Of a stretch of 64,000 nucleotides of DNA, positions 36,358-62,200 are shown in pieces. A program made the position numbers and the translations under genes. A model generated the notes under the pieces. It was not told the DNA's origin. It worked only from the letters and a program-made list of their open reading frames with translations, and did no database searches. The stretch spans positions 21,965,927 through 22,029,926 of the forward strand of contig OZ038451.1 in the NCBI GenBank assembly GCA_964036195.1, in the 5' to 3' direction. Within the stretch, counting starts at the first letter, position 1. Each line of letters begins with the position of its first letter. This stretch comes from Sphaerolaimus hirsutus. Taxonomy: Eukaryota; Nematoda; Chromadorea; Monhysterida; Sphaerolaimidae.

Positions 36358-37636
36358 ATGTCAGGGCACTTGATTCATTTCACACTGGCACTGGGCCTGT
36401 CAGTTTGCTTGACTGAGGGCAGGGGGTCATCAGATCAGGGGGTTGAGTGGTGGGGTGACAGGAGAGCCTGGATGGTGCCAGAAGATGCGCAGGGATTCAG
36501 GATCTATGACTTGACTTATGATGAGGATTGTGAGTAATTTTTTGGTAATTTTGATAAGTGATGATATTTACATTTGTCAGTGAATAATTAGACACATTTG
36601 GCTATTTATTATCTGGTGGCACACCACTGTCAAGGTGAAAGAGTCCAAACCTCTAAGAAATCATATTTTATACTCCAGTGACATTGCACCTTACAATGAA
36701 AGTTACCATATCCAATCTGAATAAAACAACAAACATAATAAAATTTTCATATCATATTTATCACATTGCTTCTACTTTGGTTGAATTTGGTGCAGTTTTT
36801 CACATTACTCAGGACCTTATTCATCAAAATCATGGTATCCTTCACTGTATAGCAATCTGTCTGTCCAGTTTACCAACTACTGTACAATTTTTACCTTCCA
36901 CCATTTCAGTGTGCTCCACCCCCAATGGAGAACTTCGAGCACATGCTGTGGAGGGCTTTGCCTATTTTGGCCAGCTATTGACTGCCAAGCCAGCATCTAC
37001 AGCACCAGAATGCCAAAGGCTGTGTTATGACCATGAAACATGCCGTGCGGTGAACTTCTACAGACCCCGGTCATACCATGCAACTGGCTATTGTGAACTG
37101 TTGTCTGACACCCAGTGGGACAGTCCCAGGTGGATGAGGAGATATCATAATGCAGTGTATTATGATTCGATTATGTGCCACCAGGTGGACAGCTTGGATG
37201 GAGTGGAGGATGGCAGCAATGGTTAGTGTACCAAGATATTTTGTTGCACTGTTTATTTTACAATGATCATGTATGATGGACTAGTGCCAATCTCAGACCC
37301 TGTAAAGTGTCAAATGTCATATAAATTGTCAATCAAAACAAAAAAATCAAAGATTTTATTACTGACATTTGACACTTTACACTTTATAGGGTCTGGGACT
37401 GCCCCCTGAAAGCGAAAATTAGTCAATATTGTCACATAGGTTTAGTGACGTCATGCCATCACAATTATGCTGATTTTTTGCTCAAGAACATGAAAACATT
37501 CAATCCCACAGCATGGCCCAAACCAGCAATACATCCAAACCAGTTGAAAGCAGCTTCAGACCAGCTATTTGTCAATGACATATTCTCAAAAATCAGAGAG
37601 TTTGTACACAAGCAGCACAAATTGAGGAGATCCTGA
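36358..37636 (+). CDS. Secreted PAN/apple-domain protein
   Basis: Exons 36358-36529, 36910-37221 and 37440-37636 join in phase 1 at both junctions, giving 226 aa ending in TGA. Residues 1-20 (HLIHFTLALGLSVCLTE) form a signal peptide. Exon 2 carries a PAN/apple-like module: FAYFGQLL, then Cys pairs in PECQRLCYDHETCRAVNFY and GYCELL, ending near SIMCHQ. The spacing CxxxCxxxxxCxxxxF fits PAN domains, which bind proteins or glycans outside the cell. Exon 3 adds a basic tail with no domain I know, including NDIFSKIREFVHKQHK. Family-level function only; no specific orthologue recognised. GC content is low and intron 2 carries an introner-like element. It converges on the EEP gene downstream. Confidence 0.75.
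37283..37414 (+). mobile_element. Introner-family copy inside a PAN-gene intron
   Basis: Ends TGCCAATCTCAGACCCTG and GGGTCTGGGACTGCCCC frame a TGTCAAATGTCAT-type interior. It lies wholly within intron 2 (37222-37439), in the same orientation to transcription as the intron-forming copies, but here the ordinary GTTAGT donor and TAG acceptor lie outside it. Confidence 0.65.
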
Positions 37637-39380: not shown

Positions 39381-42300
39381 TCACCCACTGCCCAAAGGTG
39401 ACAAGTTGCTGACAGTGCTGCCGCTCATATGCCCATTAGTCCATGTCCCCGTGTTGTCAAAGACATTGTCACCGCCATTGTCAAGTGACCACCTGTCAGT
39501 CTGTCTGCTTGTACACGGCGGGGCGGGTGGAATGCGTCCGGGCTCAACTTGCAGGTGGCCTGGAGGTAGTCCCAGACCCTGTAAAGTGTAAAGTAAAGTG
39601 CCGAATGTCATGTAAAATGTCAATCGAAACAAAAAAAATAATTTATTACTGAACTTTACATGACAATTGTCACTTTACTTTACATTTGTCGTGACAATTG
39701 ACACTTTGCATGACATTTTACATTACATTTGACACTTGACCTTACACTTGACAGGGTCTGGGATTTGCACCTGGAGGTGCTGCCGCCTCGGGTGCAGACA
39801 GGTTGCTGTGGTGCTAAAAATTGAGTGATTGGAGAATTTTTTACGACTTGAATAGACATTTCGTTGAAGAAATTCGAGTGATGCAGAAACTTACACCGTG
39901 GAGTAATTTGAGGAGTACAAGTTGGTTCAATTCAAGCACGTCGATGCGCGCCTCCAATTGTGGCACCAGTTCCATAGTGTTCCTGACTTTGGTTTTGCAG
40001 GCGGCGCAAACAATCAAAAACGATGGTGTTCCTTCATCTTGTTCTGAAATGATTGCGCAACGAAAATAATTGGATAAAAAACAGCAATATGTTTAAAAAA
40101 TGACAATCACCCATATTCTTCCGCAAGTCCCTCAATTGGCTCGTGTCCAACGAATTTCCCAGCGCACACCCACTCGAATCTTCCATTTTCTTTCCACATC
40201 CACTGCCATCATGTTTGTCCAACTGGATGTGGCATATAGAACACTTCAATGGCTTCAAGTCTTCAAAATCGTTCTCTTCTAGATGTGCGCCCCATCTGAG
40301 CAAACCAGGTGTAGCTATGCTCACACTTCTGTACCTGTTCCCAGAGCCATTTCGATTTAACGATGTCTGACTATGTGTTCGTGTTTTCAGCGGCAGCGAC
40401 GTGCGTCCAGCCAGAGAAGCTTTTCGTGAACCGGCGCCGCTAACGCGGATGTTTGATGTGACCAGTTTGTGCGCTCTGGGGGGGGGAGTTTGATAGGGTA
40501 TTGATTGTACATAATTGGACAGTTGCCAAGTTTGAGTTGACAAACCTAGGTCCAGGATTGACGGGGTCGTCAACTGCGACACTCAAAACCTCCACTTTCT
40601 CACCCACCCAAATGTGATCGGTGCAAATCTTATATTCGCTGTCTTCAAAGGTAGCCTCGTCGACGATCTGTTCCAAATTGCAGTTATTCTCATTCGACAA
40701 TCTTTTCTCACAAACGGATCTATCCGCCTCGTTCATGTAATCCAAGTTGAAGTCGCCCAGTACTACTAATTTGGCCTGGGGGCAATGCCAGACCCTGTAA
40801 AATGCCCTGTTAAATGTCAAATGTGATGCAAAATGTCAAAAGTCATTTGAGTACCTAAAATGTCATGGAGAATGAAAAAAGAACGTTTACCATTTTACAT
40901 GACTTTCGACACTTTGCATGACATTTGACGGGGCATTTTAATAACTTTTGACACTTTGCACGACATTTGACATTTGACAGGGGCATTTTCCAGGGTCTGG
41001 GAATGGCACCGGGTCTATCTTAAAGTGCGTGTAGCGCTGTCCGTCGGCGCTTAACGCGGCGATGTCGCAGCCGCGGCGCATGACGGTGTGCTGCAAGTGG
41101 GACACGAATGTTTCTTGACCATTGTCCAGCGGATAGAATACTGCTAGGACTGTTAGACCATTGTGTAGCTTGATGCCCAGATAACTGTTTCCTGTGGGGT
41201 AGGGGGTGTGGTTAATGGTTGATATTTATGTTTGTAGCCACAAAGATTGCCACTGGCAGTGTCGGTCGACCGCTTTTTTATTGTAAGTGTTTTTCATACG
41301 ACTTTGTGATTCATCCAGGGCCAAATTTGAGCACATACAGGGGTGGGCATCTTCAGTTACCGCTGGAAAAACGCGATAGCTTGAGCTACAGTTGAGCTAT
41401 CACAATGAAATTTTAACACAATAGAGTAGACTCCATAGGACACCTATGCTGAAGTTTGCAACCCAAACGGCCACAGTTTGGAGGAGTTGTGGAACACACA
41501 GTTTTTAGTGTAATTTTGTGACTTCACCCCCCTTATCTCGGGACTGGGGGACTATTCGAGTAAAAAAAGAATTTGGTAGTAGGCGCGACCACAACATACT
41601 CAAAGGGCATCAAAATCGGCCGATGTACGACAGAATGGGACGACACCAACAACCGATGACCCCCCCCCCCCTCAAATGCCACCCTCGATTTATCCTATGG
41701 GTGACGCCAAGTCACAAAATTACACTAAAAACCGTGTGTTCCACAACTCACCCAAAATGTGGCCGTTTGGGTTGCAAACTTCAGAATAGGTGTCCTATGG
41801 AGTCTTCTCCATTGTGTTAAAATTTCATTCTGATAGCTCAACCGTAGCTCAATCTATCGCATTTTCCCAGCGGTAACTGAAGATGCCCACCCCTGTACAT
41901 AGGCAAGTTTAAGTAGGCATTGTAAGGTTTTCTCGCAGAATGAAAATTATTTTGGTCAAAATACACTTTTTTCTTTACTTCAAATTCAGAAATTTGAATA
42001 AAGTTCAACATTTTGTGTGCGGCACCACAATAAAAATACACTATTTCACCTGCTGGGTGTATTTGTGAAAAAAATGGAAATTGGGCCAGCGGCAACAGAT
42101 TGAAAGCCGCTCAACATAATCCAACCATCAAAAACTGGTTAAAATATTTGAAATTTCAGAATGTAGCGGAAAAATTCGACAATTAAAAACGAGTATTCAG
42201 AAAAATTCGGGAACGAAGTTCGGACACAATTTTTAGGGGAAAACCCGAAATTCAAACTCATTTTAGGAAAAAATATTTAACAAAATGTAACAAGTTTATC

Positions 42301-45136
42301 AAAGAGCCTCTGTGATTTTGACCAAAAAAGTCGGCAGTAAACATTTCTTTACAAATAAAAGGGAATGCCACAAATAGTGATGAAAATAGCGCCGCAGGAC
42401 CTTGGCGTCAAGCGCCAATGACGCCAGAGACAAATAGCGCCAGACGCCAGCGCCTTGGCGCAATTTCATCACTACCGTATATCCTCGAATAAGACCCCAG
42501 GGGAGTTATTTTTTCGTCAGAGTTTTGAGGGGGACTTATTCAAGGGGGAGGAGTTATTCAAGGGAGGGAGTTATTTTTTCCTCAGAAACTTCATCGATTC
42601 TTCTCAGGATTGAATTCATCGTATGAATGCATTCTGTCAACTCATGTAATCCATGCAATTTAACAGTTCAACAGCAACAAAAAGGTGTTTATACACTGCG
42701 TACATGTCATGTATCTGATGTCGCTGCCATACATTAACATTCTTTTGTATTTTCATCGCTTATTTTTGTAAATTTTACAGCATATTTTTCACCCAGAGGG
42801 GGGACTTATTCAAGAGGGGGGCGTTATTCGAGGGGGGAGTTATTCAAGGGGAGGAGTTATTCGAGGGGGAGGGGTCTTATTCGATCGAGGATATACGGTA
42901 TATACCACACCCAACCTTTATCCATGGCATTGGCATCGCGCAGGAGCGAGTACCGCTCACCCAAATCGTCCTTATAATGACTTCGGCCGGGTTTCGGCAG
43001 CGGGCGCAGGAAATACAGCTGCTGCGGCCGCAGCGACTCCTTGGCGTAAATGAGCACGTCGGAGTAGTCGAAGCCGAACAGCTCGTAGCCGGGGTAGGCG
43101 CCCGCGGTCGTCCTGCGGTTTGAGAGGGAAAAGTTGGCGCGATTTATGGCACTTGAGGTAGTGTATTAGGTATGGGGCTTAATAATACCCCCGCCTTGAA
43201 TAACCCCCTCCCCCGTTAGACGAGTTAGGGAAAAAATAACCATCCTCCCCCAATTCCCCCATTACCTAGGCATATGACAAATTTGTTGTGTACAATTTGA
43301 ACAAAAATAGCACGTTATTTTGTTTGGGGGGAACTATCCAAGGGAGTATTATCAAAGCTGATGAATTATTCTTCATCGGTAGGCAGTGGGGAACTACTCG
43401 AGGGGGGAACTATTCACACGAAAGAAACTAATCGTGGATTTACGGTAGTTGGAGTTTCCAGTAAGTGGAATGTCATGAAAATACCGGACCCGAGTTTGGG
43501 AAAAATGATAATGTATTATACTATTAAAAACACAATTATCAATATATTGGTTGAGTTTATTTTTTACCACAACGATTAACTTAGTTAACTTTACCATAAC
43601 GATTAACTTAACTTACCTTAGATCCCCAACCACTAATAGACAGACATCCTGATTCTGGTAAACCTAAATGTGTTCAGAACAGATTCATCAACTTCGGAGA
43701 TTTCTGCCATCAACAACCTAAATAGTGCCTGTAGCACCATTATGGCACTTACCGTTCACCCTTCTTAACGCCGGTCATGACGAACACGTCGGCGTCGTAG
43801 GTGGCCATGGCGGTCCACGCGTTCAACTTGGACGTGCACAGCCCGCCCACATTGGCCAGGGGCACTCACAGACCCTGTAAAATGCCATGTAAAATGGCAA
43901 ATGTCATGCAACATGTCAAATGTCATGTAAAATGCCATGTAAAATGTCACGCAGAGAGTCAAAAGTCATGTAAAATGCTCCGCAAAATGGCAAACTCGTT
44001 CGCCATTTTACAGGGCATTTTACATGACTTTGACACTTGCATGACATTTAACACTTTACATGGCATTTTACAGGGTCTGGCAGTGGCACCAGGAGCAGTT
44101 TGAGCGCGCCGCGCGGCCGTTTCGCCTTGGTTTTGGCCGCGTCGGCGCGCAGTTTGGAGCCGAATGCGCGATCGAAACATCGCCCGCTGCAGCACCAGTG
44201 CGACTCGATGAACGCTTGCTGTGAGGCGACCCCTGTGGATGGGGGGGGGGACTATATGGTGAGTGATTGATAGATGCGGGGTACCTAGTATCGCACCATC
44301 TAGGTGTCAAGTGTAGTGTAAAATGACAATTTTAATACCTAAAAATAGAAATTTTTATTACTGAACTTTGGACATTTTTTGTTATTTAAAACAAAAAATA
44401 TATTATTTTCCGTGACATTTGACACTACAGGGTGCGAGACTGCTCCCATGTGCGGATGGAACACACAGCTTTTTCACGTCACTTGGTTTGCAGACAAGCA
44501 GTGTCTATTTTGAATTTTTATTTTATCATCTTTGCACCTGTGCAGCCAATGAAAACGGCACAGTACTTATTTTCAAATGCGAAACATCTTGGGGTGTAAA
44601 TATTGATAATTCAATCACCACAGGTACAGGCATTGAACACAGTCTTGCCGCACAAACTTAGTTTACTAACGGAAGTACTTAAACTCAAATTAGGCGCACA
44701 CAAATCAGCTTTGAACGTGTTCGAGTTTACCGGAATGTGTTAATTGAAATCTTAGTCAAATGCAGTTGACAGACGCTTCATTCTTGTGAACTCAAATACG
44801 TTCAAAGCCGATTTATGAGTTTACCAGCAATCTAGTTTACTGCCAGTAAACTAGTGCGCGCCGCCATCAGGTACCGCAATCCACACACAGCCACTCACAT
44901 TTGGGCAACTCCTTCCTGCCCTCCCCAGCCCTACTCTGCGCTTGCCCCGACCAATTAGCCTCCCTCCCAGTAGGGTAGAGTAAACCCGCGCAGGCACTGC
45001 TCCCGGGTAGGGAGGGCCTCCTTTTACACGCCTGCCGCCCGCAACTGTGGCAGACTAGACAGGGGGAGAATCGGAAACAACGGTAGCACTCTTGTTCGTC
45101 GTCGGACAGCACGTTGTGATTGGCGCTGGTGGGCAT
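39381..45136 (-). CDS. Zinc finger-EEP endonuclease-like-zinc finger protein
   Basis: Exons in transcript order: 45136-44875, 44232-44090, 43856-43753, 43112-42916, 41191-41010, 40775-40546, 40475-40111, 40043-39895, 39813-39771, 39559-39381. All phases agree and give 617 aa. N-terminus: a PHD-like Cys cluster (ECYRCFRFSPCLVCHSC to CEWLCVDCG), then SHWCCSGRC. Middle: an endonuclease/exonuclease/phosphatase fold with LLLANVGGLCTSKLNAW, DADVFVMTG, LVVLGDFNLDYM and CTDHIWV, the order seen in LINE endonucleases. C-terminus: a second zinc cluster (CSICHIQLD, then CAACKTKVRN), a leucine-rich helix and a Gly/Ser/Asn tail. No reverse transcriptase is visible, so a domesticated retroelement endonuclease is plausible but inferred. 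Start ATG 45136 is a guess; exons farther upstream may belong. Three introns are introner elements. Confidence 0.65.
39560..39770 (-). mobile_element. Introner copy A: whole intron with perfect 8-bp TSD
   Basis: The 211-bp intron starts GTGCAAATCCCAGACCCTG and ends CTACCTCCAG on the gene strand. TSD CCTGGAGG (+ strand) is perfect at 39559-39566 and 39770-39777. The donor GT uses the last G of one TSD plus the first T of the element; the acceptor AG lies in the other TSD copy. Splicing therefore restores the pre-insertion exon exactly. Confidence 0.85.
40776..41009 (-). mobile_element. Introner copy B: whole intron within the EEP domain
   Basis: The 234-bp intron reads GTGCCATTCCCAGACCCTGG ... 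TCTGGCATTGCCCCCAG. It joins KIDP to AKLVVLGDFN in frame, splitting the domain just before the catalytic GDFN. The interior repeats TGTCAAATGTCATG-like units. TSD remnants are diverged. Confidence 0.85.
41338..41895. mobile_element. hAT-like inverted-repeat element, CAGGGGTGGGCATC ends
   Basis: Outer ends CAGGGGTGGGCATCTTCAGT and the complement, with long imperfect arms. It lies in the EEP-gene intron 41192-42915. Flanking 8-mers do not match, so the TSD is lost or the boundaries are off. Confidence 0.65.
42376..42474. mobile_element. GGCGCC-rich short element
   Basis: Ends TAGTGATGAAAATAGCGCC and GGCGCAATTTCATCACTA; the interior is AGCGCCA words. It abuts the ACCGTATATCC element. Confidence 0.55.
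42473..42900. mobile_element. ACCGTATATCCTCGAATAAG element, copy 2
   Basis: Reverse-oriented near twin of 31815-32236, including the shared CATACATTAACATTC core block. It ends 16 bp from an EEP-gene exon end. Confidence 0.75.
43857..44089 (-). mobile_element. Introner copy C with apparent GT...TG boundaries
   Basis: The element is flanked by GCTCCTGG and GCCCCTGG on the gene strand (7 of 8 match). The donor GTGCCACTGCCAGACCCTG is canonical. The restored frame (LLL then ANVGGL) needs cutting after CCCCTG, so the intron would end in TG. The next usable canonical acceptor (CAAG before TTGAACGCG) stays in frame but removes ten residues, including the conserved Asn of the EEP core. Confidence 0.7.
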
Positions 45137-45512
45137 GTTGGACTGGATAGTGGAGGTTTTTGGCGGGTGGAGATCTGGGTTTTGGTAAGTTGGCTTATGG
45201 GTTCTGTTCGAGGGAATGGGGTGGAGTTGTTTGGTCTCGTCGAGGCTGTTTTTACTGCTGGTGCTGGCGCAACTTGTCAGGTGACCTGTAAAGTGTTAAG
45301 TCGAGTATCAAATGTCATACAAGTTTGTCAATTGTCATGACAAATTTCATACAAATTTGTCAATTGTCATGACAAATGTCATACAAATGCTTCAACTATC
45401 ATGAAAAGTGTCAAAATAAAGGTAAAAATATATTTTTCTTTTGTTGTTTTGATTGACATCTTCAATAACATTTGACACTTGACTTTACCATTTACAGGGC
45501 TTGGGACTGCCC

Positions 45513-46370
45513 CCTGGTTGAAGTACTCGTGATAATGATGTGATGCCACGAGCAGCGCTAAGTTCCGGTCGCTGCACCGGCGCCAAGCACTTCGCCTTGT
45601 GCGGCGGCGCCACGTCGCTTTTACGCAACGTTTGCAGTTTGAGCTTACAGGCGCCAAAGGCTCCAGGTTCAGTTCCTACAAACGGCCATCATCACATTTA
45701 TAATATTTACAATGCAAAGCAAACAGGTTGCAAATCAAGGAAAAACCGCGCCGGAACTAGGCCACCATCCGCATTTCAACGGACAAAAAAAAAGTCCGGG
45801 CGCCGCGGCACGTCGGCGGCGACAGCTGCGGGTTTCAATCAATGAAAATTGCCGCAAAACTCATGCCCGCGCCGCTGCGCAGTATGAATAAAATACAGTG
45901 TGCATGCAAATTTGCTTGATGGCATATTAGGTTGCCGGGCGACCATTCATACAGACAAGCGATTCGGGTAAACACCGACCGCAGGGGCCACAGCCGGGCC
46001 TGTAAAATGCCCTTTAAAATGTCAAATGTTATGGCAGCGTCAAAAGTAATGTAAAATGTCAAATCTCATGGAGTGTCAAAAGTCATGTAAAATCACCTGT
46101 CCAACGCCATGCAGTGTCAAAGCAATGTAAAATACAGATGAAAATGTCAAATGTCATGCAGTGTCAAAAGCCATGTAAAATGCCTAGAAACTGACAAATG
46201 ACATGCAGTGTCAAAAACCCTGAAAAATGGCAAACTAGGTAACTCCGTTTGCCACTTTCCCAGCCAATTTACACGACACTTGCCATTTTACAGGCTCTGG
46301 GAATGGCACCAGGTAAACACTGACCGCAGGTGCGCGCCGGGTTCAGTTCGAGCGAAAGATCGCTTGTTTC
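45513..46370 (-). CDS. Possible upstream Cys-rich exons of the EEP gene
   Basis: Candidate exon 46370-46310 (cag acceptor; ends ARTCGQCLP) joins in phase 1 to 45675-45513 (FGACKLKLQTLRKSD, HKAKC, ITSLSRVLQP). That exon could join the open frame at 45272 that leads into the 45136 exon, but only through an intron starting GG. The Cys pattern and the AFGACKL string resemble the AFGSKL and CAACKTK regions of the EEP protein, hinting at internal duplication. It could instead be a separate gene or a relic. Confidence 0.35.
46010..46309 (-). mobile_element. Introner copy E flanked by a longer duplication
   Basis: The right end (+ strand) GGGAATGGCACC supplies a GTGCCATTCCCAGAG donor to the exon at 46370-46310. 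The flanks GGTAAACACCGACCGCAGG (45968-45986) and GGTAAACACTGACCGCAGG (46312-46330) match at 18 of 19 bases, longer than the 8-bp TSD of other copies. The interior has many TGTCAAAAGTCATGTAAAATG-like units. Confidence 0.6.
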
Positions 46371-46559: not shown

Positions 46560-46735
46560 GCACCTTGTGCCAGTTCAGCAAATTGAGAAGTGATATGGCA
46601 AAAGTGAAGTGGCAAGTAATTTGGCAGTAAAAAATAAAAAGTAATTTATCTTCGCTTTTGCCATTTTACCTATCAATTCACTTAGCTTTTGCCATTTGCC
46701 ATTTTACTTCTCATTTCTCACTGGCCCCTGATCTC
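46560..46735. mobile_element. AATTGAGAAGTGA inverted-repeat element
   Basis: Left GCCAGTTCAGCAAATTGAG with AAGTGATATGGCAAAAG following; the right side is the complement ending ACTTCTCATTTCTCACTGGC. Same family as 62327-62530. Confidence 0.55.
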
Positions 46736-47191: not shown

Positions 47192-47479
47192 CTGGGACAA
47201 TTCTCCAAACTCTGCAAAATGTCAAAAGTCATGTAAAATGTCATGGAAAATGGCAAATGTCAGGTTGTGTCAAAAGTCATGTAAAATGACCTGGAAAATG
47301 GCAAATGTCATGCAGTGTCAAAAGTCATGTAAAATGTCACGTGAAATGGCTACATTTTAGAGGGACTTTTTCATGAGTTTTGACACTTTGCATGGCATTT
47401 CAAAACTTTTGACACTTTTGCATAACATTTTACATTTTACAGACATAACATGACATTTTACAGTGTCCGGAAGTGGCAC
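47192..47479 (-). mobile_element. Introner copy F with GT...AG ends
   Basis: 288 bp reading GTGCCACTTCCGGACACTG ... GGAGAATTGTCCCAG on the minus strand, with TGTCATG/CATGACA-rich interior. Flanking minus-strand sequence (47191 to about 47090) has Cys-rich and other open frames, but I cannot fix the coding frame, so the host exons are unproven. Confidence 0.6.
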
Positions 47480-48354: not shown

Positions 48355-51300
48355 CTATTGTGCGAATGCCTGATCGCCATCACTCTTGTCTGAGCCATTC
48401 TCGTCGGAATCCTGCAAAAATTGGTTGAAAAAGGATTCATATGATTGAAACGATTTCAACATAAAATTGGGCGCCTCTAATTGGAAAATTTTGAACTTAG
48501 CAATTTTTTTATATTTTTTATTTTGCTAGAACACAGTCCACAGGCCGAGCAAAAAAGTGGAGTACTTGAAACTTTTTCATTGATTTTCGAACAAAAGGCA
48601 AATAGCCAATCTTGACCAATTCCCACGATTTAGCTGCTGCGAAAGGCGCCCCAGCAAAGTAGTATGCACTTGTGCTAACTAAAGTTACAAAATAAACTTA
48701 ATCATGAATCAGCTTATGAATAAATAATAAATAAAAACTGCTCAAACAATTCAATCTTGCCAAAAAGAGTGTATAACCGATTGCAGGACCTTTCCCAGAT
48801 TCATTCAAAAATTTCCAAAAAGATAATTCGAAAATCCCAACCCAGCCACGTAGGCAGTTGGCGCCGTGCCAAAAAACCCGACTCACATCGGGCCCTTCCC
48901 CCAGGGCATCCAACATCTCAGTGGCGCTCATCTGTCTGCTCGCGGCGCTGCGCCTGCTGCCCACCTCGCTGCTATCATCCAAGCCCAACAGATCGTCTTC
49001 GTCTATTTCTTCCGCGTCGGCTTCTTGCGCGTCCACTTTGGGTACCGTTATCTCTTGTTTCGGTGGTGGATTACGGTCGGTTTTCGAGCCGGTCGCCTGA
49101 TCGTTTTCCGGGTCGGGTATCTCGCCGCTGGTGTCCGGTTCTTCGGTTTTCACGTTGGCGGGTATTTCGGACGTCTCGTCGCCCGGTTCGTCTTTGACAC
49201 CGTTTTCGGCGCCTGGATAGTGACAGAGAATTGAAAATCGTCGGGTTCTCCCCCCCGGGCGTTCTTTTCTATTCGGATCGGAGCTGGATTGAGGTGAAAA
49301 TGGACAAAACGAGCGGCAAATTTTTCCTGTTTATATACCCTAGGTGGTTAATTTTTTGATAACCTTGCTCAGACCCGATGGTATTTCGATGAAAAATATA
49401 TGTATAAATATATTCTTTTAAGGTGTAGAAAGCAGGAAGGGGGTAAAAATTACTAAAAATAGAGGAAATATAGATAAAATATTTATACAAGCACATATAT
49501 AGCTGGAATTTTTTGGGGAGGGGGGTTGCCACACACAACGTTCCCACACTAGACCCCGCCTCACCTACACCTCAATTATCAAACACAGTAAAACGATGCA
49601 AATGCATCAAATCCAGCCAGGCTCACCATTCTGCACAGAGTTTGATTTCGACAGCGTCCGTTTGACTGGACTAGGCCCCCATTCGACTGTCAGCGTGCGC
49701 CCGTCGATGCAGTCCGGCAGCAGCTCGCGCACCTGCGAAGTGAAATTTAAGTGTGAGAGATAGATCCGGGGGTAGGAAAGAGGCCGGGGGTTGGGGGGGT
49801 AAACCTGCCCAGCTATCTACCTATCTCGGAGGCCGCTCAGCTAAAACCGGAGGTAATTTTTTTTGGCTACCCTTGAACCACCCCCCAAATCGCCCAACTA
49901 TCTAAATACCTATCTGAAGCGATTTTTCTCTTTTTTATTTCTTCTACACCTTCTACACCTTGAAAAAGTCTATATCGAACCCCCGCAACCTCCTCTCCAA
50001 ATTTTTATTAGCTATCTATCTATCTATCTATCTATCTATCGATCTATCTATCTATCTATCTATCCGGAGGAGCTATTTGCTATCTATCCAACCCCCGGAG
50101 GGTTAAAATCTAGAATATTTATCCATGGATAGATCTCAAATTAAATTCAATAATTTTTGCAGTATTTCGGCCATTTCACCTGCTCAGCCTCGCGTCGGGT
50201 GGCAAATTCCACGGCCAATTTTTGCGCGCCATCGGCCGCCGCGTCGAACGAGAAATCGGTCACTTTCGCGTAGCGCTACAACGGCAGTGCAGTTTGAAGG
50301 GTGTAAACATTGACTTTTACGAAAAACGGAAGGGTAAACATTTTTCAGCTGGAGGAAAGCGGAAAGGAAAAAAATTTCACTTGCCGGAAAGCGGAAGAAT
50401 GAAAATTTTCCTTCGAAAAAGGAAGCGGATCGGCGACACCCCAGTTTGATCCAATAAAATATCAAATCCATCGAAACACAACAAAAAACAAGCAAATTTT
50501 TCACCTGCGCCGCCTGCAGCACCTGATCTTTGTTGTCCTCATCAAATCCAGCCACGAGCAACTTTTTCGGCCGCCGGTCCAAATTCGCGGACGCGGGCGG
50601 CGCACCGCGAACGGCGCGTCGCTGCTGATACGAATTTCGGCGCGGCCGGGTGCCGCGCGCTGTATTATATTAATTAATAATTAATATTTACCTATTAATT
50701 AATATTAAGAAAGTTTAATTATAAAGACTTTAAATACTAAATGCACAATTTACAGTGAAATTTACTCGGTATATTCCAGCTATCTATTTATATATCTATA
50801 TATCTAATTACCACAGAGGCGCATCAGCTATCTGTCTGTCCCGATGCGACCACCCCCTGAACCGCTCTCCCAACTCATCCATCTATCTATCACGTGGAGC
50901 AAATTTTGAGCGATTTTACCCCAAAATTAACCAAAGCCACTTGGAAATTTACCACCAGAATCACACAACGAACCCCCCCCCACCCAGAAAAAACCCATCA
51001 AACCCCCAAACCGACGCATATTAGCCAACGCAGTCAATTCGCTCTTCAACACGGCAATTCTCTGCATCACCTGCGTCACATCAGTGCCCGACTCTTTCTG
51101 CTGCTGCAGCTGCGTCTGCAATTGCTTCATTTCCGCCTGCACGCCGGCGATTTTGGCAGCTCGCTCGGCGTTTTGAGCGGCCGCCGCGGCGGCGGCCACC
51201 CCCCCGCCAGATGTTGAGTGTTTTTTGTCCAGGCCTTGGATTTTCTTGGTGATCTCGTCGATTTCTAGTTTGTACTCTTTGATCGTGTTGGTCATCGTTT

Positions 51301-54300
51301 CGAACATCTGAGGGGTGTGAGGGGGGTGAAATGGGGCATGTTCGGGTTTTTATTTTGCCAAAATTGCGTGAACCCATCCGTCCAAATTGCCCGGGTATCC
51401 ATGGCTATGGAGAAATTTTAACCGAAATTGCCATAATTGTCACTGTAATTTTTAAAGCGTTTTTCCAATTTCCACATTCAAAATCGTTCATTTCATATTT
51501 CCAAATTTCACCTATTTATGAGACATTTTCCACTTACTTTTAACGATTCTCCTCCCTTGTACCGACAACACCTTGAAAACTTTGCCCCCGCACCCCTCAA
51601 TTTTTTTGCAGTTATTTATGCCTCCAGATAAGCGCTTAACTATCTGAACTAACCCCCCAAATGGGCCAACCTTCAAAACCCCCTATTAATCCCCCCCCCC
51701 ATACCTGGACATATTGTTTCCTCTGCGCATCGGTGCACTTGTGCATCCTGGCGATCAGAGTCTTCTGCTGCTCCAAGGCCGTACTCATGAGGGCGACCTT
51801 CTTCTGCCGCAACTGCACGTACTGCTGCTTCCTGTCGCGGTTCTCTTTGAGGCGGCGCCGCGCGGCGATGTACGCGTCGCGGGCTTCCGAAGCGGCCACC
51901 GCGGCGCCCGACGCGACGAATTGAGCTGGTGGGCCGGTGACGGAGGCTGGCTGAGGTGGGAGTAGGGATGGTTGAGGGTGTTTTTCAAAGTTGAAAAAAC
52001 GTTTTTAAAATAAAAAAGCCCTTTTTTAAAAAACGAGGTCGTTGCAAAAAAATAACTTTTTCGGCCATTCCTAGGTGGGATCGCCGTTTTTGGATTGGTT
52101 TTTACTCGGCTGTATTTTGGCGGAGTTTTGATTTTGGGTTAAATAATTTCCACGGAGTTTATAGGTTCAAATTAAAGGTTAGAATAAATAGGTGTCAATT
52201 AACATAGCATTGTATAAATATATTACAGTCGTGAAAACGCGCCGCATCCCGTAAAGTAAAGTGTCAAATCTAATGTCATGTGTCAATTGAAAGAAAAGAT
52301 TTTATTACCCAACTTTTGACATTTTTTGACATCTGACAAACGTGAATGTTATTTGAAATGAAACTTGATACTTCTCGTTGATACTTCTCTTTACAATCGG
52401 CCAGAAAACGGAAAATTCTCACCATTGCCGTTGGTCCGCCGGCCCCATCAGCGGCCGTCTCTGGCTCGGTCTTGTGACTATGATAAATCTTCATCGCGGC
52501 CGGATTATAGAAAGTCTTCGAAACACTTCCGCTCACGGTCGCTTGCACGATCGCCTGTAATTTGCAAAGTGATAAAAAATAGGCATGAAAATCGGAAAGA
52601 ATATTTATTTTTAGCTGCATGATTTGAAAGATAATTTCCTCTAAAAATCGTTTGCTGGCGTAATAATCCCGTGAGGTATGTCCTTTTTTCAAATTACAAT
52701 AAATTTAAAAAAACGTCAACATCTCTCCATCCAAACAACCCCCCCCCCCATCAAATCGCCCATCCAAAAAAGCGCACCGGATTATCGCTGCGTTCAACCG
52801 TCCTGCCCGGGGCGCCGTTGCCGGGGTGCAGCTGGCTGCCGTGCCAGAACACCTTGATGAAGCGGTTGTTCAGGATCGGCTCGGTGGACCTGTACGCCTT
52901 GATCGCGTCGCCCTTGCTCGCGTAGGTCACCAGCGCCGCCTCGCAGTCGCCGTCGATGCCCACCTGCGGTGGTTGGAGTATATTCTGATGGTGTTTAAGA
53001 CATCGACCTGACTTATATGACTTATGTCTATGGAGAGTCCAACGCATTGTACGTACAGTAGTACAGTAGTGGATATGTTTCAAACGGGATTGACTTTTCG
53101 GGATAAGGATTGTTTTTTTTAGATTTCGGGATCGGGATTGGCCTTTCGGGATCGGGAATGGCATTTTACGGGTGGGGGTTTTGGCCTAAAAAATCTGGTT
53201 TTCAGGGTTTTTTTCCTCTGATCTTTCACAAAATGGTTCAACCGGATGTCAGAAAAGTTTTATAAAATTGGCATCCTGAGACAATGGTATGGATTCATGG
53301 CGCTAGTGGCATTTAGGCACTGCGCAATGGGGGCTTGGCATTGGCATTCACACAACTATTTTTATCCCAAATGGACTTATATAGCGACAATTTCATCTAT
53401 TATCTCAACTTAAGCATTGTCATCACATAGATTATATGTGAACGCCTTTTTATGAAAAATACTCTACCATCGACCTCACCTGAATATTAGAAATCGGGCC
53501 AAATTTGCCAAAGTGCTCGTTCAACTTGCTGATGTTGCAAAACTGCATGGGTATCTTGCGCACTTGCAAAGTGGTGTTACTCTGAGCGTAGCTATCCCCA
53601 CCGGGGCCGGTCATCCTTACTGGGCCCAGACGTCCGGTTAACGCACCCCTGGGGCAGTCCCGGACCCTGTAAAATTCCATGTCGAATGTCAAACGTCACG
53701 TTAAGTGTCAAAAGTCACGTAAAATAACCTGCAAAATGGCGACCGCGTTGCCATTTTGCAGGGCATTTTACGCGACTTTTGACACTTTGCGTGACACTTG
53801 ACATTTTACAGGTCATTTCACAAGGTCCGAAACTGGCACCTGCCCCTCTTCACGTGCGCCCCAGCCCCCCACTGTGAGTACTCTCCTCCCTGCACAAGGT
53901 GCCTCTTCTGCCCTACCAGTCTGACCGTGGTGGGCGGGTACATGCCGCGCGGCGGCGGCGGCCCTCCCGGGTACCCGGGCCAGTTGACCGCCGACTGCTG
54001 CATGTTGGGCGGCGGCATGGACATGTGGCCGGGCGGCGGCACGCTGAACGGGGTCCCCCCGCCCGCTGAGAGCGACGGCTGTTCGGGGTTGTAGGCGAGA
54101 CCTGGGCGGGTGGATGGTTTTGAAGGCGGGGTGGGAGATTGACGTGGTTTCAACAACGATGGGGGGGGGGAAACCCAATTTTTTCAAACGCCTTGGGTTT
54201 TTTAGGAATCTTTTTTAAATTGACTTTTTACATTGAAATAAGATTTTTAATGAATTGCAAGAAGCAAGTGTCAATCAATTGGAAAAATAAAAAATCACCA

Positions 54301-57300
54301 TTTTTCAGTTTCTTTTTACAAAATTTTAAAATTCCCAAATTTCGATTTTTTCCGCATTTTGAGCCATCGTTACAAAAAATGCAAAAAAAGCGCACGCACC
54401 ATCAGCTGGGGGTGGCAGGCGAGTTACGGACGCGTAGCCGGCAGCGGATGGTTCCAATCCGGGTACAGGGGGATTGGCAGGCATACTGAATCCGGGAGGC
54501 GGCACGCTGAAAAAACAAGTGCCGATTGGACTGAGAGATTGAGAAACGCCAACCAAGTTTCAAAAACAGCATGGGGCCTGTAAAATGCCATGCAAATTGG
54601 AAAAAGTCATGTAAAATCCACGTAACGTAAATACGCTTGCCATTTTGCAGGACATTTTAAATGACTTTTGCCACTTTGCCTGACATTTGACAGATTACGC
54701 GGATCGGCACCAGAACAGACCTCAAATTGGGCATGCCGACCACCTGGGACCCGGTGCTGCTGGGCATCATGTTCTGCAGGCACACGGGGTCCTCCACCAC
54801 CACCGGGTCGGGTCCATGATCATAGGGGCAGTTATCCCCCCTCATACAGTAGCCCTTCTCTTCATAATCAGCGCACTTTTCCCTGCCGCGGGCGGCGCGC
54901 GGCCCGTCGAAGTTTGGCGTGTCCGAACCGCCGCTCGAGTCGTCATCTGAATCGGGGGGTGACCTCAACCCCCCGCTGCTCGTAGGGCTGGCGGGCGAGG
55001 GCGGGCCGGGTGTAGGGCGCACCGCGCCGCTTAGAGGGTCGCGTCGGGCTACAATCACTTCGCGAGTGCTGCCGCCTGGGGGGGGGGGGCGCGATTTTAT
55101 GATTTTGGGGCTGAATTGTCGCGTGATTGATTGGGTGAGAAAAGTAAATGCGTTTGTGACGATTTGAATAGTTTCGCACTGTTTAGGCATAGCAAACACG
55201 CGAAAAGAAAATTCCATTTTCCGAACCATACGCGGAAGTCGCGCACCCTGTGTAAAGCAAAAAAGGTGTCAAATGTAATTTAAAATGTCATATACATTTG
55301 TTAGATGTCAAGTTCTTTTTTTATTTCAATTGAAATTTTGCATAAAATTTAACACTCGACTTTACAGGGTGCGGAACTCCCCAAGGGCTCAAAAAAACAA
55401 ACAATAAATCCACCCACCCCCAGCCGTAGGTCTCGGCGGCGGCACAAACACCTTAGCCGTCTCGCCGACGCGTTCCTTCGGCGACCGGCTTTTGATCCTC
55501 TCAGCAACTTTGGAACTCTTCTCAACCTGCGGCGGGGCGACTGGCCGCGGCGGCGACGGGTTGTCGCGGCGTCGATTCGACCCGTGCGACGATTCGGCGC
55601 GGCGGCGGTCCCGCTCGCGGCGGGATACGCGAGATGTGCGGTCGTCCCTGGAAGGGGGGATGTGGGTTTTAGATTGGTAAGTCAATTGGTAACTGTTGAT
55701 TGATATTTATAGGTACGTTTGACCAATTGCTGGGTATTTTTATCAATTTTTTTGCTTTTAACACCTTGAAAAGTTTATAACATGAACCCCCACAACTATC
55801 CAAAACTCCACTAAATACCGGAATTTTTTCGGGTTGCGGGATGGGGTACCCGTATGAACCCTAGCCTACACGGAGCTGTTCCAACCAAAAAACACGTTAT
55901 TTTTCTCCCTCAATTTCCACGCCTCAAACCTGCTATGGGAGCGGTGCTCGCGGCCCTGTTTTCGGGTGGGCGAGGCGGCCGGCTGCGGTTTGGGCGCCGG
56001 CGGCGAGATGCGTTTGCGAGCCGCCTGCGTTTTTGAAGTTTGAACACTGCATGTGGGACTATTTATTCATATGGGGGTGATGTTTGGGTCTGGGGGTTGC
56101 AGATTGAAAGGGGTAGGGAGATTTCTGAAGTAATTTGTACCGATTTTCATCCAATCGACTACTCATGACATTGCATAGTTCTGCTTTTTCGACCCACATT
56201 TTGGTTATGAAGTTTTGATTCTATAAGACAAAGTTTTAAAAATGTTGACACAAATCTCGCAACAACGTGTTGCAGCGAAGTCTCATGGCACCCATACTAT
56301 TTCGCTAATTCATAGCTTCAATGGGCCAAATGTCATGGTTGACATTAAAATTCGAGTTTACTAAATTTTGGTTAATTATGTGATTTCAACTTTCAAATTT
56401 CCTATGCGATAGAGCCTAGACGAATTTCTGTCGCGACACTTAATTTTCACCGTTACTGTTAAGTGTGATGTTGTTAATTTTTTGTGTTATTTAGTTGACA
56501 TAAATTTACGATGTCAACTAGCGTGTGCCCAATTGAACACTGTGCAAAAATAGATGACTTGAGCAAAAAACATCGCAACTGCAACAACAAACTTTGGGCG
56601 GCGGCGCATCGTCCGGTTCTTGCTTGCTTTGATGTTTGACGGCGTGCCGCCCGCCGCTGGAGGCCTGCAAATCGCAAAGTCCGGCAACTGGTAAATGGAA
56701 AACAGTTGACTTTTTACATGGAGAATGTCTTTTGAGTTGACGGATTTACAGCTATATAAGATTTCAGAAGCTGAGATTTCAAGTGTCATGTGAAATTTTC
56801 GTATATTCAATAGACAAAGACCATGGAAAAAGCGAAGTAAATGTGAGAGCTCATGTTCCGACCACAAATATTCACGCCGCAGCGCCGCATCTCCAGAATG
56901 CTGGTGTAGGCAGAAAGTCTGATGACAGCCGACCCCCAAAAAATAAAATAACATAAAATGCGATCGATAATTTTTTCGTCGCAGTAAGCTTCACTGTTCC
57001 ATTTCAACTTTCACGCGATGCATTATTTTTTCATCGCAGATAATCTTTTGTGGTCACTTTTCCGCCACGATATGATCAGTACAGGATGGTACCTTGTAAT
57101 TTACAAGGCACCATGTTTTAATATTTTTTTCATCTGATCAAAATCGCAGACAATATTCTTTTCTGACCACTAGTTTCTACCAAATTTTTCAACCCATGGG
57201 AAAACACGTGAAGAATAATATTGACAATAATCACGTGAAAAAAGTGCAAAAAGGCGCCGCTGCAACGCGATTTCCCGCCAATGTCGATGGTGCGAATCAA

Positions 57301-58933
57301 TTCCGCCGCCCACTGAACAAGACAGATTTCGATAGATCTCAATAGGGTTGGAAAGCATGCAACAACACGTACACTTTCGAAATCTGCAGACTTTTCGAAA
57401 GTTGGAAACAGTTTTCGAATTTGGTGGATCCTCTGTGAAATAATCAAATATTTTGGATCATTAAAAGCGAATTGAACCCGGATTTCTTTTCAACTGAGTT
57501 TTTGGGCGTAATTATTTTCCAAATTCGGCAAGAAAAAATCCAGTAAAAATGAGGTTACACAGAAATTCCAGCCAGACAAACGGAAAACAAAAATCGACCA
57601 AACCGAAACCCTACGCACCCTATCTTTCGGTTTTTCTTTGTCGCTGTCGCGGCGCCCTGCGCGCGCCTCACGGGGATCACGGTCATCGCGATCACGTTCA
57701 TGTTCTGCGAGAAAAATTAGGTGTTTTAGAACGGCACGCCTATTGAGACATTTTGTACAACGTTTTTGGTGCTGCGCGTGCGATGTTGTTGAAAAACCCG
57801 TGATTTTTAAATAAAGGTTTGAAAAAGAGTTTGATGGAATTTGTAATTCTTCGCGCAATTTGCATTTTGTCCCAATATAATGATAAAAACGACATTTTTA
57901 TTTCCGAAAAAGCCTCCCAGGCAGTCAATATTTCCAATAGTTGGACAAGTTATCAACCTTAATTTTTGTCCTTAACCTTAACCTTAACCAAAAATATATC
58001 AGTCTTTATTTCAACAAAAATATGTAAGTATATCAAAATACGTCAAAAATTGTCCCATACAAACCTCCTTTTTTCTCCTTCTTTACATCAGCCCCTTGTC
58101 TTCTGGGTTCATTTTCATTGTTCTGCGTACCCGGCGCGGCAATTTCATCACCAGACGTAGAATCGACTTTAAAATCGGCTGGCAGGTAGGATTTGTCGCT
58201 GATGACGTCGAATAAACGATCCACGAAAGGGACCGTTTCTGAAAATGACAAAATTGGGGTTTTACTAGGCTATTTAATGCATTTCTAGGCTGGGGTGGGT
58301 AGGGGGGCGGGGGTTGTAGCCAAAAAATCGCCGCCGGCATAGATAGATAGCTTAGATTTGGGTTACCCCCCCTCCCACCTGACCTGCCCCCCATTGGAGA
58401 CCCCGCATCCGCATTTATTAGGTTGGAAAGAAAGTTCCTTCCAACTCCAACTGAAGTGATCTCTATAATCGGTTAGAACTCCAACCATATACAATCGATC
58501 AAACGCACCCTGTTGCAAGAAAACATCGAGTTGGTCAACGCAGAACGACTTTAGTTCGTTCTCGGCCTTGTCTTTGCGCAACAGAGCCATCACGTAACGC
58601 GCCAGGGCGCCCGGGTCCGCGTCGCACCTGCAAAGTGCATTTCTATCTAATTAGGTGTCTCCTAATTAAGCGGCGTTCACACGTTCTTGTCTTGATGACA
58701 ATAGTGATGATGTGTAGGTTCAGAAAAGAGTCTCATATGGGATGGGCACAGATTATGACCCATAAGCAATGAATTTCAATGCAATATCAAAAGAGCGAGC
58801 AGCATAATACATTTTAAACGACTCTCCAATTTCAGAAAAAAACTTTTGAACTGTCGAAGAAAACGGACACTTTTTGCAGGGCGGAAGTCAGCCATTTCTG
58901 CAGATGGTCCGCCGTCGGTTGATCAATTTTCAT
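48355..58933 (-). CDS. rbm26: RBM26/RBM27 (Swm) RNA-binding protein, complete
   Basis: Twenty exons, every phase consistent, 1,109 aa: 58933-58869, 58627-58509, 58238-58065, 57704-57619, 56664-56593, 56024-55930, 55647-55418, 55075-54721, 54506-54400, 54101-53840, 53648-53480, 52963-52778, 52554-52423, 51950-51705, 51307-51016, 50659-50505, 50275-50180, 49732-49627, 49212-48887, 48411-48355. Domain order matches the family. A PWI-like N-terminus (CDADPGALARYVMALL, FCVDQLDVFLQ, FVDRLFDVISDKSYLP) is followed by an Arg/Ser-rich region, a CCCH finger (CADYEEKGYCMRGDNCPYDH) and a Pro-rich stretch. RRM1 follows (LQVRKIPMQF, KLNEHFGKFGPISNIQ, EPILNNRFIKVFWHG), then KTFYNPAAMK, coiled coils, a second RRM (RRPKKLLVAGFDEDN) and an acidic tail. 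In animals the protein acts with ZFC3H1/PAXT-type nuclear RNA surveillance. Length is close to human RBM26/27. The start fits the family N-terminus. Confidence 0.93.
50010..50064. repeat. TATC microsatellite
   Basis: About 13 tandem TATC units, one altered to GATC, inside a CAGGGGTCTC/CTATCTATC hAT-family relic within an RBM26 intron. Confidence 0.9.
51963..52073. mobile_element. Tiny hAT-like MITE of 111 bp
   Basis: Ends TAGGGATGG and CCATTCCTA, TSD GGTGGGAG/GGTGGGAT (51955-51962, 52074-52081; 7 of 8). The interior AACGTTTTTAAAATAAAAAA resembles the arms of the 680-bp family without its core. It starts 13 bp beyond the acceptor of the RBM26 exon 51950-51705. Confidence 0.7.
53649..53839 (-). 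mobile_element. Introner copy G: whole RBM26 intron
   Basis: The 191-bp intron between RBM26 exons 10 and 11 is exactly this element: GTGCCAGTTTCGGACCTTG at the donor, GTCCGGGACTGCCCCAG at the acceptor. Joining gives HVKRG-R-GALTGRLGP in frame just before RRM1. The interior contains TGTCAAAAGTCACG-type units and their complements. Confidence 0.88.
54575..54711 (-). mobile_element. Introner copy H just inside an RBM26 donor
   Basis: Ends GGTGCCGATCCGCG and ACAGGCCCCATG with the usual TGACATTTTG-type interior. It lies in the intron 54507-54720. The in-frame donor is GTCTGT ten bases upstream of the element's own GTGCCG; using the element donor would break the frame of the next exon. Confidence 0.6.
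55228..55383 (+). mobile_element. Introner-related copy I, CGCACCCTG subfamily
   Basis: Ends GTCGCGCACCCTGTGTAAAG and TTTACAGGGTGCGGAACTCC. Orientation is opposite to the host RBM26 gene and it lies inside the intron 55076-55417 rather than at its edges. A sister copy is at about 44297-44455. Confidence 0.5.
56040..56590. other. RBM26 intron with a MITE end
   Basis: Mostly unremarkable intron. The end TCGATGTCAAC-like ACGATGTCAACTAGCGTGTG at about 56507-56527 is a solo end of the CACACGCTAGTTGACATCG family. Confidence 0.4.
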
Positions 58934-59231: not shown

Positions 59232-62200
59232 TCATGAACAAACTGCAACACGCAACAGTTTTGGCGTTTTCTGTCCCCTTTGTCTGGCAGTCCGGCGAGA
59301 GATTTTTTTCTAATTAATGTAATGTCCCGAGACGCTGTGTATTTGCGCAAACCTGGTTGTTTGTTTCATAATCCAATTTTTTTTACTTTATATACCTTTT
59401 TATTTTTTTACTTTTATAGCCGTATTCGTTTTTCATTTTCAATTTTTATTTTTTCATTCATTTTTTTAAATAATCGCTTTCGGTCACTGCGCATTTGGCA
59501 TTTTGTCAAAGTAAAATTGGCGTTTTTTCGTGGGAAAGTTTTAAACTTTTAACAGTTTAACTCTGGCTTTTTCGGCAACATTTTGTGTGGTAATATTCAT
59601 AAATAAACTCATTCATAAATGGGGACTTTCATTCCAAAAGTTAACATATCCAAATTTTTCGATTTTTCAAAATCGCATTTTAAAGATTGGCGCTGGCCCG
59701 GCAGCGCCATGTTTGGGCGACAAAGCTTGCCCTGCACTTTTCAGATATCTCGGACATTTGTCTACAATTTTTGTGTCACTAAATTTTGTCGGCTGGTAAA
59801 TATTTTGGGAGTTATGTCATATTTTGTAAACCACCCAAAATAAGGAGTAAATTTGAAGTTTTGAACTTGAAATGTAAATAACTTCCTAACGGTGGATCGC
59901 AGGGCAAAACCAATTACACCACTGAGAAGCCCTTTTCGAGAAGTACACAAACCTAAATTTTCATATCTATATTTATACCCGTACTCGATTTATAGAGCAA
60001 AATAAATTTGGAAATTCACGTATGCACATTTGCAAATGAAACTTAATTTTGTATGGGAAATCCGGCCGGCTCTTCGCGAGCGATCCGGAGCACGCGTGCA
60101 CTTTTGGAAATGAAACTATTTTTTGGATATGTGCACTTATGAAATGAAACTCCGGTGGTCCGTCATGGATATGTGCACTTACGAAATGAAAGTCCTGTTT
60201 TTCATAGGGGATCTGAGATGGATATGTGCACTTTCGATATGAAAATCGTGATTTTTCTGAAAAACGGTACCACCGTATCTCGGGAACGAAATGGACTATA
60301 ACACTGATTTTTTTACCAAAATGGGCAGAATTATACGTGGATGTCGATGCCACAGCTAACTCGATTTTTCTGGATTTGGCGCTTGTGAACTTTTGGAACG
60401 GAAGTCCCCAAATACCGTATTTCCTCGAAATACCCCCCTTGAATTAACCCCCACCCCTCGAAATACGCATGGCGGGCGTGCCATTTAGGCATGCCGCTGC
60501 GAAAAGAAAATCAGGAAAAAACCCTGAAAAAAACAATCCGATCCCGATCCCGGTCCCGAAAAGTCAATCCCGTTTGAACGACACCACATCGTGATATCAA
60601 ATTTTTGTTTGCTCTTTGCAGCTGTCGTCTTATTGCCACTGACGTTTTTTTTGCGTGGCTTGATTTCAGACAGACTAAGTCTCTGTTATTTATTAACATA
60701 AAATACATAATAATTCTAACAATATAAATATTTACAAACATATGAAACTTAAGCAAATGAATCCAAATCCAATGCCAATTTCCAAATCCCACGCCAGTCT
60801 TCATAGATACCGAATATTACACATCAAAAACACAACGAAAGTATGTTGGGAAGGATTGACCTTACTGGCTTACAACAATAGCATATTTTGACAAAATATT
60901 TATCTATTCCTTTCTCAAACAGCCATCTAGTCTGCAAGGAACGCACCCGCCGCAGCGCACTGGTGTCTGAAAAGCGAAAAGGTATATCCAAATTACCGTA
61001 TTTCCTCGAAATACCCCCCCCCCCCCTTGAAATACCCCCCCCCTCGTTTGACCCCTCCCCCTCTCGAGACCACTGTGAAACAATCACCCCCCCCTCGAAA
61101 TACCCCCCCCAAATTGAGTGTAAAGGGAACGTACATGACAATAACTATAGTTTGTGTTCAGTGTACTGCAGAACACACGTTAAAACAATGTCGGTGTCAC
61201 GTTAGAACAGTGTACATACCATCTACATACTAATATTAGTCTACAGAACCTTATAAATGGCGGTTTTTGTTGCATTTTTCGACGTCTGCGTACGTTTCAG
61301 ACGACAATTTCGTACTTGGTTTTCAAAAATTTTCTTGTGAAACAATAACCCCCCCCTCGAAATACCCCCCCCCTCGTTTGACCCCCCCCCCCTCTCGGGA
61401 CCACTATGAAACAATCACCCCCCGGGGGGTATTTCGAGGAAATACGGTAGTATAAATACTTTAAGTAGTAAATTTCATTGACACAAAATATCAAGTAAAT
61501 GTCAAAAGGCACCCCCGAACCCTGTAAAGCGCAAAGTCAAGTGTCAAATGCTATGTAAAATGACAATAGAAACAAAAAGAGAAAAGATTTTATTTCTGAA
61601 ATTGTGACACTTTGCCTGATATTTGACAAATTTATATGACATTTACATGATATTTGACATTTGACTTTAAACTCTACGGAGTTCGGGACTGGCACCCGAT
61701 GACAAAACTGACCCTTTCATGTTTCGCCCGATGGGGGCAAATTCCCCACCAATGCATGTCATCATAGCAAACTGAACATTGCGTTTGGTTCAATCTTTGT
61801 TTCACTGCCTTTATATCGTAACCCATATGTTGCTGCATGTAAATTGTCCGCGGTCCGCCCATCAGCGCCGTGTAGCATTTGTCGTATCTTCAATAAAGAT
61901 TTTGAGTAAAAATTGAGCAAAAGCACCAAAAAATTTGGGAATGGTGATCTGGGCCCTGGGATTGATTAGATCTACAGCATTCATAAGGATGGCAAAAAGT
62001 GTTTTTTTTTCAATAGTGTTTCAATAGTTCATCACTAGTTCATGCGTCTAACTGCCTGTTTTCAGCTATTTTTAGTAGTATATGTGCTTATATACCCATT
62101 TTTAGCCATTTTCACCTACTTTTAGCGATTTTTCTCCCTTTTCTTCCTTATATATATACCTTGAAAAAGCCTATATATCGTACCCCCGCAACCCCTCCCG

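Follow-up and report, generated by a model that had tools for sequence, protein, structure and literature searches.

Genes of the window

The window (the whole 64,000-nucleotide stretch of DNA analysed here) looks eukaryotic and animal-like from its predicted proteins, which include a gene with PWI, CCCH and RRM domains, a gene with an endonuclease/exonuclease/phosphatase (EEP) domain and a PAN-domain open frame. The 3′ part of the EEP gene (minus strand, 39381–44232) was modelled as nine exons, at 44232–44090, 43856–43753, 43112–42916, 41191–41010 and 40775–40546 (exons 1–5 of the model) and at 40475–40111, 40043–39895, 39813–39771 and 39559–39381 (exons 6–9). With three element insertions excised exactly and five ordinary GT-AG introns removed, these exons give one open frame of 529 codons with a stop at its end; the other two frames are stop-rich. 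The Pfam family Exo_endo_phos matches residues 49–280 of the model, and a sequence search of the EEP part against solved structures returned none at E values up to 1.

The second gene (minus strand, 48355–58933) is the one with the PWI, CCCH and RRM domains. Its exons from 58627 to 52778 were modelled singly, not joined as one translated frame, and the others, down to about 48355, were assigned by eye. We take the combination of a PWI domain, a CCCH zinc finger and an RRM to be the architecture of RBM26/27. An exon at 58933–58844 was tried as the first of this RBM26/27-like model and left unused, since reading by hand gave no in-frame join to the second. Two RBM26/27-like parts gave 99 and 15 pattern matches when compared with prokaryote and viral contigs, none of which was confirmed by tblastn.

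A family of inverted-repeat elements

A profile search located an inverted-repeat element at 15 places in the window (E up to 0.01), comprising nine copies with both ends and six diverged or partial ones. The profile was built from eight copies. The five strongest copies match it with E values of 4e-43 to 2e-58, having themselves helped to build it, and c61 (61507–61695, minus strand), which was kept out, still matches at E = 3e-25. Full copies are 122–325 nt long and are inverted repeat nearly throughout, with arms 69–88% identical across the nine. The element therefore has the anatomy of a MITE: short, non-autonomous, ending in terminal inverted repeats and present in several copies, nine of them full.

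Element borders were placed by eye. The 5′ edge reads GTGC in all nine full copies, and a typical 5′ end is GTGCCANTCCCAGACCCTG. Read from the outside in, the 3′ end is typically GGGGCAGTCCCAGACCCTG and starts with GGG in 6/9, the exceptions being c39 (GAG), c47 (GGA) and c61 (AGG). It is the whole terminal repeat that identifies the family, not the 9-mer GGGCAGTCC; alone and at one mismatch, that word was found 6 times against 7.2 expected in shuffles, which is no excess. An earlier, sequence-only reading of this DNA had several copies sharing the same ends and layout. The shared ends are confirmed, and the common layout is not, since c44 carries TG at its 3′ edge.

Rfam (gathering) and tRNA searches of the window were empty. 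A pattern scan of viral contigs gave 9 matches, with neither of two second-terminal-repeat words within 600 bases; two other element patterns gave none in the viral contigs, one pattern gave none in genome contigs, and blastn of 43800–44300 against a phage collection gave no match.

All 15 places found by the profile search lie within 37284–62530, and the first 37 kb have none. The element is thus confined to the right 42% of the window, though the left part also has exon-like ORFs, for example an RRM-like one at 79–498 (by eye). Its restriction to 37284–62530 and absence from 1–37283 could reflect either clustering in this region or some way in which the genes differ.

Four coding exons are interrupted by exactly one element plus 3 bp

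Four sense-oriented copies interrupt coding exons, three in the EEP gene and one in the PWI+CCCH+RRM gene. All are on the minus strand, and each is a predicted introner intron: c39 at 39560–39770 (211 nt, a 208-nt element at 39563–39770 plus CAG at 39560–39562), c41 at 40776–41009 (234 nt, a 231-nt element plus CAG), c44 at 43857–44089 (233 nt, a 230-nt element plus CTG) and c54 at 53649–53839 (191 nt, a 188-nt element plus CAG). In all four, the exon interruption is exactly the element and 3 bp, and removing exactly this much leaves a stop-free frame. Reading through instead would meet a stop 8.7 (c39), 23 (c41), 13 (c44) or 6.3 (c54) codons past the exon end.

These results bear out much of the sequence-only reading, which had described 39560–39770 as a transposon turned intron. 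On the minus strand the sequence does read CCTCCAG, then GTGCAAATCCC through to CTACCTCCAG, then GCC; the exon edges named there (39771/39559, 41010/40775 and 53840/53648) match our exon models base for base; and excision regenerates the reading frame as stated, without a stop in 4/4 and with the best Pfam score for c41.

For c41, the junction falls after residue 208, inside the EEP domain, and the Pfam match crosses it. Exact removal scores 26.8 bits against a Pfam cut-off of 24.5 bits, the top-ranked in-frame alternative pair of splice sites scores 21.8 bits, and read-through gives no match. The c44 junction follows residue 47, two residues ahead of the start of the Pfam match; because the match begins past this junction, it is evidence that the exon after it codes from the very start, and not evidence for the precise junction. 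The best of the canonical alternatives at c44 loses ten residues at the domain start and scores 25.6 bits, with profile positions 4–25 unmatched. The fourth copy, c54, sits between two RBM26/27-like exons in the linker before the RRM; once it is removed exactly, the two exons read on into each other with no stop.

Predicted splice borders and the choice between outer and inner sites

Splicing is predicted to take place at the outer edges of the element. With cuts marked by slashes, the donor and acceptor would be CAG/GTGCAA and CCTCCAG/G for c39, CCG/GTGCCA and CCCCCAG/G for c41, and CAG/GTGCCA and GCCCCAG/G for c54. Borders are thus GT...AG in three of the four exonic sense copies. The donor of c44 would be CTG/GTGCCA, its exact 3′ edge is CCCCTG/G, and it would need GT...TG splicing. 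TG acceptors do exist: the published account gives 36 verified human genes (PMC2374985).

Site strength was scored with matrices derived from the window's ordinary splice sites (16 donors and 16 acceptors), each ordinary donor being scored leave-one-out. The outer donors score 0.3–2.7, under every ordinary donor (lowest 3.3). The outer AG acceptors score 1.4–3.9, in the lower part of the ordinary range of 0.3–15.3, and the TG of c44 scores −0.8. When all in-frame GT-AG pairs were ranked, the exact pair came third of 11 for c39, second of 12 for c41 and second of 9 for c54, and was absent for c44. One further copy near an EEP exon, c45r (45261–45513, plus strand, reversed relative to the gene), was excluded from this enumeration because its exon frame is ambiguous.

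Where exactly the spliceosome cuts is a real uncertainty. The element might contain an intron of its own, with the inner sites CCCT/GTAAAA ... TTTTACAG/GG being used and about 36 nt of element exonised, much as in Aureococcus, where introners that add codons are documented (PMC9860276). Inner TTTACAG acceptors score 5–12, well above the outer acceptors; the top-ranked in-frame pair for c39 combines an inner donor (offset 23) with the inner acceptor; and the CCCT/GT...TTTTACAG/GG pair keeps the frame open in c54, without a stop, and, when read by hand, fits the frame of c45r. Exact removal of c45r is out of frame, so it was not counted for exact excision; reading by hand, it is in frame with the inner sites CCCT/GTAAAT ... 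TTTACAG/GT, and also with an upstream GTAAGC donor joined to the inner acceptor. Against inner splicing, the inner donors score worse than the outer ones in 4/4 sense copies, c41 has GG in place of GT at its inner donor, the 3′ part that c44 would retain has an in-frame TGA, and the CCCT/GT pair shifts the frame in c39, where, as in c41, other inner pairs preserve it. The Pfam score of c41 also drops with its top-ranked alternative, which is of this inner type. Of the four sense copies, c54 alone stays in frame under a mixed model of outer donor and inner acceptor. We prefer the outer edges because the reading frames fit, the Pfam score of c41 is best there, the outer donors outscore the inner ones, c41 has lost its inner donor and c44 would retain an in-frame stop, and we consider inner splicing unlikely.

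It is also conceivable that no intron was created, the copies having landed in older introns or being unspliced, damaging insertions. Matches do lie inside ordinary introns, at 55237–55382 and in the diverged copy c55i (54554–54710, minus strand, beginning 10 nt past a GTCTGT donor), and by eye also at 52231–52411. Among canonical in-frame solutions for c44, moreover, only one very weak pair (−12.1) keeps the first EEP residues. The four exonic interruptions nevertheless consist of exactly the element and 3 bp with the same coding frame on both sides, and reading through them would truncate both proteins, so that we regard this explanation as distinctly improbable.

The outer-edge reading may gain from RNA structure. 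For the transcripts of c39, c41, c44 and c54, the predicted folds are hairpins with energies between −105 and −149 kcal/mol and z-scores of −10.8, −12.2, −14.4 and −13.3, respectively; for each, none of 200 shuffles was as stable as the real hairpin. In the predicted fold, the better-scoring inner TTTTACAG acceptor is buried and the outer edges are brought together, and such a hairpin could influence which sites are chosen.

The target-site duplication and the transposon family

The 5′ flank of each copy was matched against the 3′ side of the same copy and, in permutations, against the 3′ sides of the other copies, following the same logic of flank comparison as an earlier introner survey (PMC9860276). 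The first test used eight copies and omitted c55i and c61, which have ill-defined 3′ ends; c61 was added later as a miss. Position −2, the middle base of CWG, is the only position to depart from expectation, with agreement in 6/8 copies where 3.0 are expected (P = 0.014, also familywise over eight positions) and in 6/9 with c61 included (familywise P = 0.028); these values come from borders set by eye, and the CWG idea arose from the same copies that were then used to test it. Positions −3 and −1 cannot discriminate, being C and G, respectively, almost throughout. An identical CWG stands on both sides in five of the nine full copies: c39, c44, c54, c45r (CTG and CTG) and c46 (45985–46309, minus strand, CTG and CTG). 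The misfits are c41 (CCG and CAG), c47 (47195–47479, minus strand, CGG and CAG), c37 (37284–37405, plus strand, CTA and CTG) and c61, whose 3′ end is diverged and whose flanks (CGG and TTT) show no duplication. By eye, the joined target is CNGG in 6/8 copies. From these few flanks, the duplication is, tentatively, best described as a 3-bp CWG.

The sequence-only reading had instead proposed a perfect 8-bp duplication as a family trait and a hAT-like element. Positions −8 to −4 give 15/40 matches against 12.9 expected (P = 0.19, with the low power of eight copies), and P rises to 0.66 without c39 and to 0.92 without c39 and c44. In the five bases before CWG, the 3′ sides are on average 3.25/5 identical between copies and the 5′ flanks 1.36/5; as the 3′ bases are alike between copies and the 5′ flanks are not, these five bases are best read as element sequence. 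A hAT-type element with an 8-bp duplication, which the 8/8 match in c39 and the 7/8 match in c44 would suit, is highly improbable given matches of 2–4/8 in the other six of eight copies, no excess at −8 to −4, and flank statistics and element ends that favour a 3-bp CWG duplication. The original observation is thus upheld for its sequence, exon edges and frame, and not for its family-wide 8-bp duplication. The introner mechanism it described keeps insertion into exons with splice-capable borders and loses its classification.

A CWG duplication points to another group of transposons. NuwaI belongs to the PHIS superfamily, which also holds PIF/Harbinger, occurs in animals, duplicates 5′-CWG-3′ and has terminal inverted repeats that usually start with GGG, as described by Han et al. 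(PMC4482050). Our element resembles it in its probable CWG duplication, in the GGG at one element end in most copies and in its apparently animal host; the agreement is fair for the duplication and for the 3′ end. It differs in that the 5′ terminal repeat starts with GTGC and not GGG, and the passages on NuwaI in that report do not mention intron creation (PMC4482050). With GTG for GGG, the 5′ end departs from NuwaI at exactly the base that makes the donor. We propose that the element is probably a member of a NuwaI-like PHIS (PIF/Harbinger-like) family. A literature search that did not extend to Huff et al. (2016) or to Gozashti et al. (2025) found no report of NuwaI-type introners; PIF/Harbinger is listed among the transposons detected in recently gained fungal introns (PMC8476143).

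A model for intron creation by the element

We think it likely that the element is an introner, that is, a non-autonomous inverted-repeat MITE, probably NuwaI-like PHIS, whose insertion into coding exons creates introns, with splicing predicted. A transposase would insert the element at CWG, often within CNGG, and duplicate the trinucleotide, a duplication that the flank statistics support from few copies. The two terminal repeats differ at the donor base: the 5′ end is GTGC and the 3′ end, as its reverse complement, is mostly GGG, so that T stands for G at position 2. A sense insertion at CAG has the geometry CAG/GTGC...GCCCC/CAG/, with the donor in the element and the second CAG serving as the acceptor. 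The sequence-only reading was right that the acceptor AG comes from the second target copy; it built the donor half from the duplication, and with a CWG duplication the GT would lie wholly within the element. Splicing would then remove the element together with 3 bp and leave the mRNA unchanged, the transcript hairpin perhaps favouring the outer edges.

A proto-splice site has the form (C/A)AG/G, and the CNGG target is close to it. A bolder version of the model, which we offer tentatively and with more doubt than belief, equates the C-CWG-G target with the proto-splice site and has a change of GG to GT in one repeat make every sense insertion at CAG a born intron, whereas copies at CTG, such as c44, would survive by hairpin-aided GT...TG splicing. 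In that case a PIF/Harbinger-type MITE would act in an animal as a dedicated maker of introns, and the target specificity of a transposon, not later selection, would set the splice sites.

Comparison with known introners

How spliceosomal introns arise has long been a question, and introners offer a mechanism able to produce many of them together. As in introners, the four predicted introns, in two genes, are alike up to both splice borders. The introners of Aureococcus and Micromonas (Huff et al. 2016) are reportedly MITE-like, with a target-site duplication that helps to build a splice site; the present family differs from them in host lineage and in duplication length.

According to one survey, introners occur in 175 of 3,325 genomes, animals (copepods) included, and among the layouts it describes is one in which the introner brings its own 5′ splice site and co-opts the site at its 3′ side (PMC9860276). 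The likeness is to the Chrysochromulina introners, in which the element gives the donor and the duplicated target the acceptor; these are described with a 4-bp duplication and no evidence of terminal inverted repeats, whereas here there is a 3-bp CWG duplication, long terminal repeats and whole-element hairpins (PMC9860276). The introner elements of the dinoflagellate Amoebophrya are also similar, with inverted repeats able to fold into a hairpin that joins the exon edges and direct repeats of 3–5 nt at the borders, many of which are non-GT-AG (PMC7789003). In the account given there, the Amoebophrya elements vary widely in their border motifs and lack a family-specific repeat, unlike the single family here, whose borders are mostly GT-AG and which lies among GT-AG introns (PMC7789003).

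An element family that is apparently animal would tie the birth of introns to transposons with a proto-splice-like trinucleotide target. That two genes within 64 kb already hold four predicted gains suggests many more in the genome, and that number of copies would make intron gain, splice-site choice by hairpins and a possible GT-TG intron accessible in one species.

Other copies and repeats

Two of the remaining full copies, c46 and c47, may also be exonic. c37 begins about 60 nt past the end of the PAN-domain open frame (plus strand) and is apparently non-coding. The direct repeat that flanks c46, CCTGCGGTC[A/G]GTGTTTACC, is 19 bp long with one difference (45967–45985 and 46312–46330), which far exceeds the length of the CWG duplication at the other copies. 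By eye, diverged minus-strand copies at 54710, 61695, 62530 and 52411 start about 10–30 nt 3′ of what looks like an ordinary 5′ splice site; this could make them older introner introns with a shifted donor, or could reflect an insertion preference.

A related but distinct inverted-repeat subfamily occurs at 62328–62530 and 46567–46733, with ends GGGGCCAGTT...AACTGGCCCC that are clear at 62328–62530. By eye, CCHC zinc knuckles are encoded by an exon next to the copy at 62328–62530. Another abundant repeat, CCGTATTTCCTCGAAATACCCCCC, has up to 17 matches (at least 65% identical to the reference) over 6131–61023. A repeat of about 500 bp occurs three times within 8 kb, at 524–1054, 5312–5843 and 7969–8499, its copies being 95–98% alike, and represents either a recent duplication or a young mobile element.
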